Shown: positions 6,347 through 12,230 of the stretch, piece by piece
Layout: every line of letters starts with the position of its first letter
Position numbering within the stretch: position 1 is the stretch's first letter
Source of the DNA: Spirochaetaceae bacterium
GTDB lineage: Bacteria; Spirochaetota; Spirochaetia; DSM-27196; SLAA01
Direction: 5' to 3'
Assembly (NCBI GenBank): GCA_003556605.1
Contig: PWQX01000179.1
Coordinates: forward strand, 1 to 55,024
Length of the DNA: 55,024 bases
Made by a program: the position numbers and the translations under genes
Notes under the pieces: generated by a model
Told to the model about the DNA's origin: nothing
Seen by the model: only the letters and a program-made list of their open reading frames with translations
The model's database searches: none

Positions 6347-8353
6347 CTAGAGGCTGCCGAGAATAGATTCCACCTCATCGCGATCCTCGTATGCGGTGTT
6401 CCGCGCCAGCAAATCCTCGAGAACGCTGCGAGCACCGGCGGTGTCTTCGCGTGCAACCAGTACCTCGCCGAGGCGGTGGTACGCACGCCAGAAGTCGGGG
6501 TTGCTTTCGAGAACCGCGCGCAGGTGAGTTTCGGCATCCGAGTAGCGTTCAGCGCCGATATAGGCAATCGCAAGATCATAGCGCAGAACCGGGTCTTCGG
6601 GATCGCCCTCACGCGCGATACGGTAGTGGTCTATAGCGTCCTCAAAGCGTTCGAGCTCGCTGTACACCTTCCCGAGATTATTGTTGAGCTCAACCGAATT
6701 AGGATCGATGCGATAGGCGGTTTTGAGGAACTCAAGCGCTTCGTTGTATAGTTCTTCCTGTTCCAGGATACGGCCCAGCTCGACGTACGGGCTCACGTAC
6801 CCCCGGTCAAGCGCAATTGCCTCCGTGTGTGCGGCAATTGCTGCAGTGGTCTCCTCTCGCTCTTCCTGTATCTGCCCGAGCGTAAAATGGTACTCCGGTG
6901 CGCCCCGATTCAGTCTAATCGCACGCGTGATCGCCTCGTAAGCCTGATCGGGATTGCCCCGGTCCTTCTGCACCAAGGCGAGGTTATAGTTGTTGGTGGC
7001 GCTGTCCGGGTTGGCGTCCAGGGCCCGGCTGTAGTAGGTCTCAGCGCGGCGCAAGTCGCCGGCGCGATAATACGCAGCGGCGAGCCGACTATTGTAATCT
7101 GCGTTATGCGGATCATACACCAGTGCCTTGCGGTACGCGTTGATCGCGCCATCGAGATCGCCTTGTGTGACTCTTACACGCCCAATGCGGTAATGTGCGC
7201 GGGCGTCGTCCGGCTTCACCTGCACCGCAGAGTTCAGTGCCGCTAAGGCCCGCGATTCGGACCCCAGTTGCAGATTGGTTATCGCGAGATTGTAGTACGC
7301 GTTGGGAAGCTCCGGTTTTATCCGCACCGCCCTCTCGTAGGAAGAGCGCGCATCACGGAACTCACGCACGCGAAACTGCGCGTTGCCGAGCCGATACCAG
7401 AGCTCGGCGCTCTCGGTATGCAGCTCGCTCGCCCGCACGAACTCGTCAAGCGCCTCGTCAAACCGCCGGCGCTGTTGCTGCACCTTTCCCCGCACGAAGT
7501 AGGCTCGCCAGGTGTCACGGTTGAGGCTCAGCGCCTCCTCGGCGTGCTTCATCGCCCGTGTCTGAGCGTCGCTGCTCTCGGGGTCCTCCTCAAAGTAGCT
7601 CTCGGCAGTGCCTGCCTGCGCGCGCGCGTGATATCGACGTTGAACCGCATCGTCTTCGAGCTCAATCGCGAGCGCCGAGTCGAAGCGATCGCGAGCGCGA
7701 GAGAAACTCTCACGTTCAAGCGCGCGCTCACCGCCGTCAACCAGGCGTGCGAGCTGCTCCTGCCTTTCACGTTCCTCAGCTTCAAGCGCAGCTAGACGTT
7801 CCTGTTCCGCCCGCTCGGCGGCGCGTCGTTCTTCCTCTTGACGGCGGCGTTCTTGTTCTTCAGCTTCACGGCGCGCTTGTTCCTCCTCGGCTGCAGCGCG
7901 CGCTCGCTCACGCTCTTCGGCTGCCTCACGTGCGAGCCGCTCGGCCTCGCGGCGACTCTCCTCGGCCCGCGCGCGAGCGCGCTCCAGCTCAAGGAGCTCT
8001 TCCTCGCTGACCTCACCGCTATCACGTGCTTCACGAAGCTGTTGCTGAGCCAAGCGTTCAGCCTCACGCTGCTCCTCGCGACGCGCAGCGAGGATTTTAC
8101 TTCGCAGCTCGCGCGCCTCGTCGTCCGAGGCGTCACGAATCAGCAAATCGTCGATCAAGTCGAGCGCCCGCTGATACTCAGCGTCCTCGTAGTACTCGCG
8201 GGCGAGTCTCAGCGTATTCCGGCGCGTTATCTCAGCCTCCGACATTGCCGGCTCAGCGTCACGCCCCAAGAACCAAACCGCAGTTCCCACTCCGGCCACC
8301 AGCAACAGCACCAAGAGACCCCCAACTGCGATCACCTTAGTTCGTCCGTTCAT
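6347..8353 (-). CDS. Membrane-anchored coiled-coil and TPR protein
   Basis: A single N-terminal membrane segment (about residues 8-29, VIAVGGLLVLLLVAGVGTAVWFL) is followed by a long Arg/Glu/Ala-rich coiled coil (about 90-215) and then by about a dozen tetratricopeptide repeats to the C-terminus (units such as PNAYYNLAITNLQLGSESRALAALNSAV). This suggests an envelope scaffold that holds protein partners; the substrate is unknown. The ATG follows GAGGA at good spacing. It lies 33 bases after another TPR/coiled-coil gene on the same strand, so the two probably form an operon. The product is a spirochaete-style TPR protein with no assignable enzymatic role. Confidence 0.85.
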   Translation of the reverse strand: MNGRTKVIAVGGLLVLLLVAGVGTAVWFLGRDAEPAMSEAEITRRNTLRLAREYYEDAEYQRALDLIDDLLIRDASDDEARELRSKILAARREEQREAERLAQQQLREARDSGEVSEEELLELERARARAEESRREAERLAREAAEERERARAAAEEEQARREAEEQERRRQEEERRAAERAEQERLAALEAEERERQEQLARLVDGGERALERESFSRARDRFDSALAIELEDDAVQRRYHARAQAGTAESYFEEDPESSDAQTRAMKHAEEALSLNRDTWRAYFVRGKVQQQRRRFDEALDEFVRASELHTESAELWYRLGNAQFRVREFRDARSSYERAVRIKPELPNAYYNLAITNLQLGSESRALAALNSAVQVKPDDARAHYRIGRVRVTQGDLDGAINAYRKALVYDPHNADYNSRLAAAYYRAGDLRRAETYYSRALDANPDSATNNYNLALVQKDRGNPDQAYEAITRAIRLNRGAPEYHFTLGQIQEEREETTAAIAAHTEAIALDRGYVSPYVELGRILEQEELYNEALEFLKTAYRIDPNSVELNNNLGKVYSELERFEDAIDHYRIAREGDPEDPVLRYDLAIAYIGAERYSDAETHLRAVLESNPDFWRAYHRLGEVLVAREDTAGARSVLEDLLARNTAYEDRDEVESILGSL

Positions 8354-8386: not shown

Positions 8387-9250
8387 CTACTCGGCGATGT
8401 CGAGCGTGTCGTCGTATTCTTCGATATCCTCGGAAGGAGCCGAGAACGTGCGGCCCTCGTCTCGCGAAGTGCCGAGCGAGTCCCGAACGGTCTCGAGCAA
8501 TGCCCGGCGGCGTTCTTCCTCTTCCCGGCGGCGGCGCTCTTCTTCCGCTTTTCGGCGCTCCTCTTCTAAGCGTGCCTGGCGCTCTTGTTCTTCACGAAGA
8601 CGACGCGCTTCCTCTTCTGCTCGTATTGTATCACGCAGCAGAGCTATCATCTTCTCCACCTCGCGCCGCTGCGCTGTGTTCGGATCGTATTCAAGATACG
8701 TAGTGTAGTCCCTTATCGCCCCGGGATACTCCGAGGCGCGAACCCGCAGATTCGCCCGATTCAGATACGCTTCGGCAAACCGCTCGTCATGCTCTAACGC
8801 CTTGGTGTAAAGCTCTTTCGCCTTTCCGGCGTTGCCGAGCCGCTGGTAATTGTTGGCCATATTGTAGTATAGTGTCCCGAGCTCGGCGCCGCCGACCTCG
8901 AGCCCTAGCTTCATCGTTTCGATCGCACGTTCGAAAAGCCCGAGTTGCTCGTACACGACACCGAGATAGAGATACACGTCGGGGTTGTCCGGATCCTCCT
9001 CCAACGCTTGTTCAAGCCATCGCAGCGCCTGCTCGGGCTTATTATCGAGGTAGTAATTTTCCCCAAGGGTCAATGCCGAGTCCCCGCCGAACAGGGGCCC
9101 GGCTGCTGCAAACACCAGCACCGCGATTGCCACACTCAGCACACGGCGGGTTAGGGGTCTGCGAATCGGCCGATAAAGGATTTGACACAAACGGGCAAAG
9201 TCATTACTCTTTGGCGAAAATCCAGGCTCTGGAGCTCGGTGAGTTCTCAT
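8387..9250 (-). CDS. TPR protein with signal-anchor and C-terminal coiled coil
   Basis: The N-terminus has an Arg-rich stretch (RRPLTRR) followed by a hydrophobic segment (VLSVAIAVLVFAAAGPLFGG) that looks like a signal peptide or anchor. About four TPR units follow (NPDVYLYLGVVYEQLGLFERAIETMKLGLE and so on), then a highly charged coiled coil and an acidic tail. The tracked ORF starts at 9427, deep inside the divergent gene. The ATG at 9250 (MRTHRAP) is the first reasonable start, and its codon overlaps the ATG of the divergent gene within a CATG. A GTG directly before the hydrophobic segment (RR-VLSVAIAV) is a credible alternative that would free the intergenic DNA for the neighbour's promoter. 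It is co-directional with the coil-TPR gene at 6347-8353, and function is unknown. Confidence 0.75.
   Translation of the reverse strand: MRTHRAPEPGFSPKSNDFARLCQILYRPIRRPLTRRVLSVAIAVLVFAAAGPLFGGDSALTLGENYYLDNKPEQALRWLEQALEEDPDNPDVYLYLGVVYEQLGLFERAIETMKLGLEVGGAELGTLYYNMANNYQRLGNAGKAKELYTKALEHDERFAEAYLNRANLRVRASEYPGAIRDYTTYLEYDPNTAQRREVEKMIALLRDTIRAEEEARRLREEQERQARLEEERRKAEEERRRREEEERRRALLETVRDSLGTSRDEGRTFSAPSEDIEEYDDTLDIAE
9182..9210 (+). promoter_or_regulatory. Promoter of the TPR-Mrr/phosphoesterase/ParB-like unit
   Basis: TTGACA (9182-9187) is followed after exactly 17 bases by TACTCT (9205-9210), 38 bases before the ATG at 9249. The -35 is perfect and the -10 keeps the TA...T frame. If the divergent TPR gene really starts at 9250, this promoter lies inside its coding sequence. 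Confidence 0.55.
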
Positions 9251-10604
9251 GGCGCTCTTCATAGCTACTATAATCCTCGGTGGCGTGGTGATAATTGTTA
9301 GCGCTATGCTATTGAAAAAGCTACTGGAGCCTCGGCGGGTAGCTTCCGTCGCGCAGTTACTCAAGCAAGGCAAGTCTGCAGCTGCTATTCGCGCCGCCAA
9401 ACGGATCATTGCCAGCGACAACCGCAACGCCGAAGCGCGCTACCTCCTTGGGTTAGCCTACTTGGCCGAAAGCAGACCGGAACTCGCGCTTGTTGAGTTC
9501 CAAGCCGTCAACCAGCTCGGCCGTTTCGAAGGCTACGTAGAAGAAATACCTTTCAGAAAGAAGATAGCAGAGCTCTATGCAAAGTTCAATCAGCCGGAGG
9601 AAGCGCTCAAAGAGCATCTGCTGTTAGTCAACAGAGAGCCGAACAACGCCGACCACTACTGCGAAGCCGGCAAGCTGTTTGAAAACCGCAACCGCAGCAG
9701 CAAGGCTACGGCACTCTATCGCAAAGCCGTGCACCTGAACCCGCAGCATGTCGAAGCGCGTTTTCGCCTCGCTCTGCTGTACTATCGCGCCAAGAACGTC
9801 TCCGATGCACGCGCCGAGCTCGATGCGGCCTTGAAGCTGAACCCCGACAACGCCGAAGCACACTACTACATGGGAAGAATCCAGAAGGAGTTAAAGGAGC
9901 TCAACGCCGCGCTCGGCTCGTTTGAGACCGCGTCGCGCGATCAGCGCTTTCGTATACGCGCGCTGGTTGAGCGTGGCACGGTATACATGGGGTTAAGCAA
10001 TCTGAGCTCCGCGGTTGCCGAGCTGGAACGCGCTGTGAAGCTCAGCACTGCCGACGGGTCGAACGAAACGCTGCATGCCCGTTACTTTCTCGCACTTTGT
10101 TACGAGCGTCAGCGTAGGCTGGATCTCGCGATAGACCAATGGGAACGGATCTATACCAAGAAACCCACGTTCAAAGACGTGGCAGTGAAACTCGACCAGT
10201 ATCAAGAGATGCGAACCGATGACCGCATGAAGGATTACATGACCAGCGGCGACGAAGAGTATGGGCGAATCTGCAGCGCTATCGCGGTGCATCTCGGGCT
10301 GGAGGTACGTGACGTTACGGTAAACGGAGACGCATGTGAGATAATTGCGGCGGAGAGTCAGTCAAAATGGCGCAGCGCGCGCAAGATGCCGCAGTTGCTA
10401 CGCTTTCTTCGCGTTACGCACGTGACAAGTCAGGCCGGCGTGCGAGAACTGCATGAAGAAATGAAGGGGCAAAGCATAACGCGGGGCACAATAATCACGA
10501 GCTCGGGGTTCTCACGCACTGCGGTAGACTTTGCCGAAACCCGGCCAATCCATCTCCTTGATCGTGAGAAGCTCCAAGAACTGCTCAAGCAAATCGAGTG
10601 GTAG
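9249..10604 (+). CDS. Membrane TPR protein with degenerate Mrr-like C-terminal domain
   Basis: An N-terminal membrane helix (FIATIILGGVVIIVSAMLL, about 3-22) leads into six or more TPR units through about residue 320. The last ~110 residues resemble the Mrr-type PD-(D/E)xK domain. An initial helix (EEYGRICSAIAVHLGLEV) precedes GDACEIIA, and the end fits the Mrr pattern of a GTIITSSGFSRTAVDFA strand-helix followed by IHLLDREKLQELL. The position expected to hold the catalytic Q-x-K reads LLRFLRV, so nuclease activity is probably lost (inference). It is the first gene of a unit with a phosphoesterase and a ParB-like gene. A GGTGAG sequence precedes the ATG. Its TPR array may recruit partners to the membrane. 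Confidence 0.8.
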   Translation: MALFIATIILGGVVIIVSAMLLKKLLEPRRVASVAQLLKQGKSAAAIRAAKRIIASDNRNAEARYLLGLAYLAESRPELALVEFQAVNQLGRFEGYVEEIPFRKKIAELYAKFNQPEEALKEHLLLVNREPNNADHYCEAGKLFENRNRSSKATALYRKAVHLNPQHVEARFRLALLYYRAKNVSDARAELDAALKLNPDNAEAHYYMGRIQKELKELNAALGSFETASRDQRFRIRALVERGTVYMGLSNLSSAVAELERAVKLSTADGSNETLHARYFLALCYERQRRLDLAIDQWERIYTKKPTFKDVAVKLDQYQEMRTDDRMKDYMTSGDEEYGRICSAIAVHLGLEVRDVTVNGDACEIIAAESQSKWRSARKMPQLLRFLRVTHVTSQAGVRELHEEMKGQSITRGTIITSSGFSRTAVDFAETRPIHLLDREKLQELLKQIEW

Positions 10605-10624
10605 CCCCGGCGGAGGCCAATCCC

Positions 10625-11293
10625 GTGAAGATCCTGGCCATAGCTGACCATATTGACCCGCTCGTCTACAGCACCCAGATCAAGCAACGCTTTGGTGACG
10701 TTGACTTGGTAGTGAGCGCGGGCGACCTCCCTATGCGTTATCTCGGGTTTATAGCCAGCTCGTTGAACACGCCGATCGTGTTTGTCTTCGGAAACCACAA
10801 CACCTCAGAGATGGCCGTATTCTGCCCGAACCGGCACGTACCGCTTGATGCCAATTCTGCGGCCGGGTACACCCAGAACCGCTACGGCTCCACCTGCGCC
10901 GAGGATCGCGTCATTCGCACCAAGGGGCTATTGATCGCCGGACTCGGCGGCTCACCGCGATACAGTATGGGGCCGCATCAGTTCACCGAAGGGCAGATGC
11001 AGCGGAGGATCGTCAGACTCGTTCCTCGTTTGCTGTGGAACCGGCTGAGACACGGACGGTTTCTCGATATTCTGCTGACTCACGCCGCCCCGAGAAACAT
11101 ACAAGACGGGGACGACCGCTGCCATCTCGGATTCAAGAGCTTTGTGTGGTTTATGCGAACGTTTCGCCCGCGTTACTTGCTGCACGGCCATGTTCATCTT
11201 TATGATCGCAATGCGCCCCGTACAAGCAAATACTGCGACACGACAGTCATCAACGTATACGACCATTATATTCTGGAGCTGAGCGATGAATAG
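10625..11293 (+). CDS. Calcineurin-like metallophosphoesterase
   Basis: The metal-binding blocks of the calcineurin-type phosphoesterase fold are present in order: an N-terminal ADHIDP (in place of the usual DxH), SAGDLP, FGNHN, LLTHAAP and LLHGHVH. The substrate is not predictable; members of this fold act on phosphoproteins, nucleotides or nucleic acids. The tracked start (GTG 10598) overlaps the end of the TPR gene. I prefer the GTG at 10625, eight bases behind GGAGG, which begins right at the first beta strand (VKILAIADHIDP) and gives 222 residues. The next gene starts 8 bases before this stop, so these two genes are translationally linked. Confidence 0.88.
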   Translation: MKILAIADHIDPLVYSTQIKQRFGDVDLVVSAGDLPMRYLGFIASSLNTPIVFVFGNHNTSEMAVFCPNRHVPLDANSAAGYTQNRYGSTCAEDRVIRTKGLLIAGLGGSPRYSMGPHQFTEGQMQRRIVRLVPRLLWNRLRHGRFLDILLTHAAPRNIQDGDDRCHLGFKSFVWFMRTFRPRYLLHGHVHLYDRNAPRTSKYCDTTVINVYDHYILELSDE

Positions 11294-12230
11294 TGCGATA
11301 GACCAACTGGCTTCAGACGACTTCAATCGTGCGCGTACGCATGAGATAATCGGACGTATACTCTCGGCGCTGCACCCATCGACTCAGGAGCTCCTGTCGC
11401 TTGCCGAGGTCAAAGACGCCCTCAAACCGAAGACCGAAACGTATCGAGGCATGCAGCAGGTGGCGATCAGCAAGATCGTTGGAAGCGAGGGGCGATATCA
11501 GGATTTCAACCGCGGGTTCCTGCCGAGGCGTGAACACCTGCGCGGACGCTGGACAAGCGTCGACAAGGCCTATATCCAAGACATCATCCTTCCCCCGATC
11601 CGGCTGTACGAAATCGGCGGAGTCTACTTTGTGCGTGACGGCAATCATCGTGTATCGGTGGCCAAAGCGCAGGGGGTTTATGCAGTCGACGCGGAGGTAA
11701 CCTCGCTGAACAGTGAGGTGCACCTCCCCGAGAATATGACACGGGAGAATTTGCGGCGTGCAGTACTCCAGTACGAACGCGAGCGCTTTCTCGCTGAAAC
11801 CGGGTTCGACCGGATCGTACCGGAAGAGAACTTGGTCTTTACCGAACCGGGACGTTACGAGGAGATCACGCAGCACATTCACGGTCATAAGTACTTCATC
11901 AACCAAGACAAACTCGACGAGGTTGCGTGGGACGGTGCCGTGTGCTCATGGTACAACACCGTGTATCGACCAATTGTCGAGGTGCTGCGGCGTGAGCGCT
12001 TAACAAGCCGCTTCCCGGGACGTACGCACAGTGACCTCTACGTCTGGATCGTGAAGCACTGGCATTACCTGAAATCCGAACGTGACCCTGAGTACGCGGT
12101 GGACCGGGCGGCGGTAGATTACTCCGAACGTTTCGGCCACCGCAGCCTCCGGCGCAGGCTCCGCGACCGTGTGCTACAGCTGCTCGGCCGCTGGATAAAG
12201 CCGAATCCGCCCCAAGACGACTGCCGATAA
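11286..12230 (+). CDS. ParB-like DGNHR-motif protein
   Basis: The centre of this 314-residue protein holds IRLYEIGGVYFVRDGNHRVSVAKAQG. This matches the ParB/Srx-like fold signature (DGxHR with a following helix), seen in ParB-type proteins and in free-serine kinases such as SerK and SbnI. The flanking parts (an N-terminal helical segment and a basic C-terminus) have no clear family. The ATG at 11286 overlaps the phosphoesterase stop by 8 bases. It could be a nucleic-acid-linked ParB-like regulator or a small-molecule/protein kinase opposed by the adjacent phosphoesterase; the sequence alone does not decide. The gene ends convergently 10 bases from a lipoprotein gene. Confidence 0.75.
   Translation: MNSAIDQLASDDFNRARTHEIIGRILSALHPSTQELLSLAEVKDALKPKTETYRGMQQVAISKIVGSEGRYQDFNRGFLPRREHLRGRWTSVDKAYIQDIILPPIRLYEIGGVYFVRDGNHRVSVAKAQGVYAVDAEVTSLNSEVHLPENMTRENLRRAVLQYERERFLAETGFDRIVPEENLVFTEPGRYEEITQHIHGHKYFINQDKLDEVAWDGAVCSWYNTVYRPIVEVLRRERLTSRFPGRTHSDLYVWIVKHWHYLKSERDPEYAVDRAAVDYSERFGHRSLRRRLRDRVLQLLGRWIKPNPPQDDCR

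Follow-up and report, generated by a model that had tools for sequence, protein, structure and literature searches.

Results

Organization of the locus

The window, meaning the whole 55-kb contig analysed, comes from a 3.88-Mb Spirochaetota genome (G000). It contains three tightly packed genes, here called A, B and C; the open reading frames and their tight packing, as first described, were confirmed. The features are as follows:

9182..9210, + strand: likely promoter of the operon, TTGACA (9182-9187), 17 nt, TACTCT
9249..10604, + strand: gene A, 451 aa; N-terminal membrane anchor, TPR repeats, C-terminal Mrr-like domain
10212..10601, + strand: restriction-endonuclease-like C-terminal domain of A, residues 322-451; catalytic residues unconserved
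10625..11293, + strand: gene B, calcineurin-like metallophosphoesterase without the motif I His (Pfam Metallophos, alignments)
11286..12230, + strand: gene C, 314 aa; ParB/Srx-fold and DUF4032-like protein
11436..11708, + strand: ParB/Srx-fold domain of C, about residues 51-141, with motif YFVRDGNHRVSVAK (AF2, Foldseek)
11637-11651, + strand: DGNHR within the motif YFVRDGNHRVSVAK of C
11817..12158, + strand: helical DUF4032-like domain of C, about residues 178-291 (PF13224)

The B reading frame is open from 10598 to 11293. Its likeliest start by conservation is a GTG at 10625 (222 aa), 20 bases past the end of A, and C overlaps B by 8 bases. The three proteins are strongly conserved in relatives, far above chance, with identities of about 72-84% within the genus and 40-65% across the class. 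The promoter had been called a good one: the TTGACA upstream of A and a downstream ATTAC.CT element are kept in five genomes of the genus, but a consensus promoter scan listed nothing upstream of A, and the strength appears moderate. An Rfam search of the region gave no match.

Gene A, a phylum-wide membrane TPR protein

Pfam recognized TPRs and Mrr_cat in A (E 3.5e-9; 4e-10 for the C-terminal domain). The protein has a single hydrophobic stretch, at the N-terminus, followed by the positive residues KKLLEPRR; the positive-inside rule would therefore place the TPRs and the C-terminal domain in the cytosol, and A is predicted to be membrane-anchored. The AF2 model of the last 130 residues had a pLDDT of 91, and a Foldseek search of the C-terminal domain against the PDB returned MspJI, AspBHI and RPB5, indicating the restriction-endonuclease fold. 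Catalytic PD-(D/E)xK residues, in the form D...(E/Q)xK, were not conserved in an alignment of 22 A orthologues. The suggestion of a decayed Mrr-type domain was thus borne out, the fold being present and the catalytic residues unconserved. A possible identity with the flagellar collar proteins FlcA, FlcB or FlcC (PMC8609358) was rejected, because A gave only generic TPR scores, far under the cut-offs, and is also predicted to face the cytosol.

A-type Mrr domains were found in 191 of 247 Spirochaetota genomes, many of them without B or C, and A orthologues lie immediately 5' of B in most Spirochaetia examined. A is a phylum-wide membrane TPR protein that is clustered with B-C in most Spirochaetia. 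Nearly every Spirochaetia genome also encodes a second TPR-Mrr protein with 25-30% identity and an Mrr-like end (L066, at positions 606-1004 of contig C170 of G000; L159-L163); in the Borreliaceae-like family f26, the only thing seen is a divergent match. In G030 (L070, 5343-5735), A is seemingly cut to its N-terminal TPR part, the Mrr-like domain being undetected, and B-C is intact. Two TPR genes divergent from A (8387-9190 and 6350-8353, - strand) are conserved alongside it, and both occur with A in a genome the size of that of T. pallidum (L191). In the product of the shorter one, the TPRs give way to a charged, E/R-rich tail that resembles the tail described for TP0470 (PMC9531955); TP0470 may be the orthologue of this shorter protein.

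Gene order and its exceptions

The order A-B-C recurs through many families of the class Spirochaetia, with gaps of about -14 to +72 bases at intact loci. It belongs to a larger block, conserved in many genomes, that runs from mutL through the two opposite-strand TPR genes, A, B, C, rpsU and a gene for an M23 peptidase to recJ and deoA; since the whole block is conserved, the adjacency of A, B and C alone is weak evidence. Among 80 named loci retrieved by C, B lay directly 5' in 78 and a full A was present in about 54, a count read off the locus table in which some contigs stop before A. Several Treponema loci have B-C but no A between B and the TPR gene; in genus g32, A-B is retained and C is lost, with a GAF-SpoIIE gene next; the 1.14-Mb genome of T. 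pallidum size has retained A and the TPR genes and has neither B nor C. B-C is also absent from family f26. Joint conservation of the three genes, the check suggested in the earlier note, holds for their order across many Spirochaetia families but not for mutual dependence: a three-gene dependency was rejected on finding A without B-C in many genomes, B-C without A, and A-B without C.

B and C form a two-gene module

In the 247 Spirochaetota genomes, C was found in 76 and B in 82; both were present in 75, C only in 1 and B only in 7 (Fisher p 7e-54, uncorrected for relatedness). The two genes are adjacent on one strand in 61 of the 75 genomes that have both. They lie on separate contigs in nine genomes (G062, G084, G105, G111, G118, G123, G143, G167 and G206), of which contig breaks could explain a few, such as G084 and G167, where a gene is at a contig end. 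C precedes B in five others (G063, G113, G120, G127 and G204), which indicates that the linkage survived rearrangement.

Evidence from outside the phylum comes from a small number of records in a plasmid collection (Tsukamurella, Cetobacterium, Collinsella, Subdoligranulum and Rubrobacter), and the pair is present there as well. Among the Actinomycetota, Tsukamurella has adjacent B-C genes by tblastn, as does Cetobacterium of the Fusobacteriota. In Subdoligranulum (Bacillota) and Collinsella (Actinomycetota), C carries a fused Bmp (PnrA-like) domain, and the B gene downstream overlaps the fusion gene by 4 bases; these fusions have no apparent signal peptide, and a C-Bmp fusion also occurs in spirochaete genome G151. 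B-C is thus a two-gene module, inherited together and usually a few bases apart, in at least four phyla. We found no paper describing this pair, nor any named system of the composition A-B-C, which agrees with the earlier note.

Protein B

B matched Pfam Metallophos above the cut-off (E 3.2e-8), and alignments show that it retains D8, D34, N57, H58, H153, H189 and H191. Its sequence thus identifies a calcineurin-fold metallophosphoesterase in which most metal and catalytic ligands are kept. In every lineage examined, B has no His in the third place of motif I (D-x-H), which makes the activity of B uncertain.

Protein C

The AF2 model of C had a mean pLDDT of 84. In a Foldseek search against the PDB, the N domains of ParB and Noc were the best matches by E-value (best E 6e-4); Arabidopsis sulfiredoxin reached a TM-score of 0.67 over the target, and SbnI and SerK were also matched. 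C therefore folds like ParB, Srx and SerK, the kinship that the earlier proposal required. In sequence searches, no member matched Pfam ParBc, the only Pfam match of the C protein in the window being a weak one to DUF4032; Pfam recognized no HTH in C; PDB sequence searches gave chance matches only; and PHROGs contained no viral relatives. PF13224 (DUF4032) matched 23 of 24 C orthologues at E <=0.1 (best 8.5e-7), with the C protein of the window scoring under the curated cut-off.

Across 16 divergent C members, G66, V116, G119 and R122 are kept. The DGNHR element varies (DGHHR, DGNRR, EGNKR), GNHR being present in most members. By sequence comparison, N120 probably occupies the position of the Glu of ParB GERR and of the sulfiredoxin Cys. 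The GERR catalytic Glu (Asn in most members) and a conserved ENxxR box are absent from the family alignments, and the Cys position is Asn or His in 16 of 16 members compared. With these residues replaced, C is not a sulfiredoxin and probably not a classical ParB CTPase either. E68 of GSEGR is invariant in the Spirochaetia orthologues and is found beyond them in their longer paralogues only; other lineages have V, T, L or K instead. C could act as a kinase, but these residues do not indicate this across the family.

Parts of C also occur in other arrangements. The DUF4032-like domain forms stand-alone C paralogues of 140-270 aa, which are found, unlinked to B-C, in most order-level relatives (L151, L153, L154, L155, L164). 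Longer paralogues combine the ParB/Srx domain with two DUF4032-like domains (L165, L156, L157, L158); in L165, two of them are in tandem and adjoin an alpha-amylase gene and a radical SAM gene. A Rubrobacter plasmid (L168, 4926-5405) has just the ParB/Srx half of C, placed within an arsenic-resistance cluster; at a distance of about 3 kb it encodes a metallophosphoesterase different from B.

Neighbourhoods of B-C outside the block

The neighbours of B-C vary greatly between lineages; the loci were examined selectively and any common theme was read by inspection. Nucleoside genes adjoin the pair in G047 (Bmp substrate-binding protein, ABC ATPase, two permeases and purine nucleoside phosphorylase, then B-C) and G048 (nucleoside phosphorylase, cupin, B-C), and Bmp-type ABC genes lie near it with a dehydrogenase in G053. 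The cofactor gene nadA precedes B in three families (G073, G125, G096), which are perhaps one lineage, and NAD kinase follows C in the two tested. Pyridoxal kinase follows C in L104 and, by Pfam, in L093. In G074, C is followed by a phosphoribosyltransferase-like gene and galactokinase. The Tsukamurella pair is found with a full sugar ABC operon including alpha-amylase and LacI, and the Cetobacterium pair with a sugar permease, TrmB and glycogen phosphorylase; in G125, alpha-amylase adjoins two C-like paralogues. Other neighbours do not fit nutrient salvage: thioredoxin reductase (trxB), an HD domain and prmA in G204, rubrerythrin in G127, and a diacylglycerol-kinase-like (lipid kinase) gene with an acyltransferase in L113. 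Overall, the contexts are suggestive of nucleoside, sugar and cofactor metabolism. A theme restricted to sugars was rejected, since contexts with PNP/Bmp, nadA/NAD kinase or pyridoxal kinase are equally common. A link to phosphate starvation (PMC5082522) was also rejected; the ParB-like protein in that work belongs to another Pfam family and is a secreted lipoprotein.

Discussion

The earlier note pointed to something real and apparently undescribed, but its boundary was misplaced: it is B-C that evolution keeps. Our preferred reading, to which we give a probability of roughly 0.4, is that B and C are a soluble pair, a nucleotide-binding protein and a phosphoesterase, whose target in nutrient uptake or salvage is a small phosphorylated compound or signal. 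C would use its ParB/Srx pocket to bind a nucleotide, and might transfer phosphate to a nutrient-derived small molecule such as a nucleoside, sugar or cofactor, or change state in response to it; B would hydrolyse the phosphorylated product or nucleotide signal. The pair may thereby control how much is present of a single phosphorylated metabolite or signal linked to nutrient uptake or salvage. A, in front of the pair in most Spirochaetia, is probably a membrane scaffold and dispensable to it. The absence of B-C from family f26 and from the T. pallidum-sized genome fits a metabolic role that is dispensable in small, host-dependent genomes. A bolder form of the idea, which we hold only tentatively, is that B-C is a widespread and so far unrecognised nutrient-responsive device, for signalling or metabolism, in which C makes or senses a phosphorylated molecule derived from a nucleoside or sugar, B removes it, and the C-Bmp fusions are a ligand-sensing version.

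The model first proposed, a three-protein signalling unit with C as a SerK-type kinase, B as the opposing phosphatase and A as membrane receptor, now seems improbable. The A-B-C order with near-zero gaps in many Spirochaetia families speaks for such a unit, but the wide occurrence of A-type Mrr domains without B or C, and the loci with B-C but not A or A-B but not C, speak against it; A has no obvious sensor among its cytosolic domains. That A is an integral part or the receptor is not supported. The structural nearness of C to SbnI and SerK would suit a kinase, and a SerK-like catalytic Glu may sit at E68, but the variation of that residue in other lineages does not favour this. A serine kinase C opposed by B is possible, but the candidate Glu is conserved in close relatives only, and the contexts in other lineages point to the metabolism of nucleosides, sugars and cofactors, not to protein phosphorylation or nucleic acids. 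Still less likely is that A, B and C are neighbours through ancient synteny alone, with unrelated functions. The long conserved block from mutL to deoA invites this explanation, which is quite plausible for A alone; for B-C it is largely refuted, as the two genes occur together outside the block and in other phyla, and genomes in which they are unlinked still have both.

An unlikely but more serious competitor makes C a ParB-type NTP-dependent switch with no kinase activity, which B would reset as a regulator or nucleotide hydrolase, the output perhaps being control of transcription or of a transporter. The ParB and Noc domains are, after all, the closest fold matches of C by E-value, and ParB-fold proteins are versatile NTP binders that bind ATP, CTP or GTP (PMC12704722). 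The C-Bmp fusions of Subdoligranulum and Collinsella, with no apparent signal peptide, resemble cytosolic sensors, and LacI and TrmB regulators lie near B-C. Such a switch would nevertheless have to work with Asn (GNHR) in place of the GERR Glu in most members, with no conserved ENxxR box and with no HTH recognized by Pfam. If the preferred reading, a pair acting on a phosphorylated nutrient-derived molecule, is true, the ParB/Srx fold extends from DNA segregation to nutrient metabolism or signalling.

Among known systems, the Mrr/MspJI-type nucleases share the fold of the A C-terminal domain, which differs in having no conserved catalytic D...(E/Q)xK and in its fusion to a membrane-anchored TPR array. 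B has the GD, GNH, H and GHxH motifs of calcineurin-like phosphoesterases of the MPPED2 and YfcE type; its profile matches are weak (MPPED2, E 0.011; YfcE, E 5e-4, far under the family cut-off), and the motif I His sets all B members examined apart. C shares its nucleotide-binding domain fold with the ParB/Noc CTPases but lacks GERR, the conserved ENxxR box and a Pfam ParBc match. Figures of a 2025 survey of ParB-fold proteins define the fold by PF02195, and phosphoesterases and sugars go unmentioned in its main text (PMC12704722); the C family was probably missed there, since no C member matches PF02195. With sulfiredoxin, C has in common a compact ParB-like fold without a recognized HTH (TM-score 0.67 over the Srx chain). 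The catalytic Cys of sulfiredoxin sits in a GCHR motif, and is replaced in C by the Asn of GNHR. The free serine kinases SerK and SbnI, whose fold the N-terminal domain of C resembles, carry a phosphate-binding motif of the DG-x-H-R type. A motif of this type is present in C as well; C differs from them in its C-terminal DUF4032-like domain, its phosphoesterase partner and a candidate catalytic Glu that is not family-wide. We found no paper on DUF4032, a family present in the Corynebacterium, Thermus and Deinobacterium control genomes. PF13224 proteins have in common with C the domain of its C-terminal half, and B-C gives DUF4032 a concrete partner and candidate ligands.
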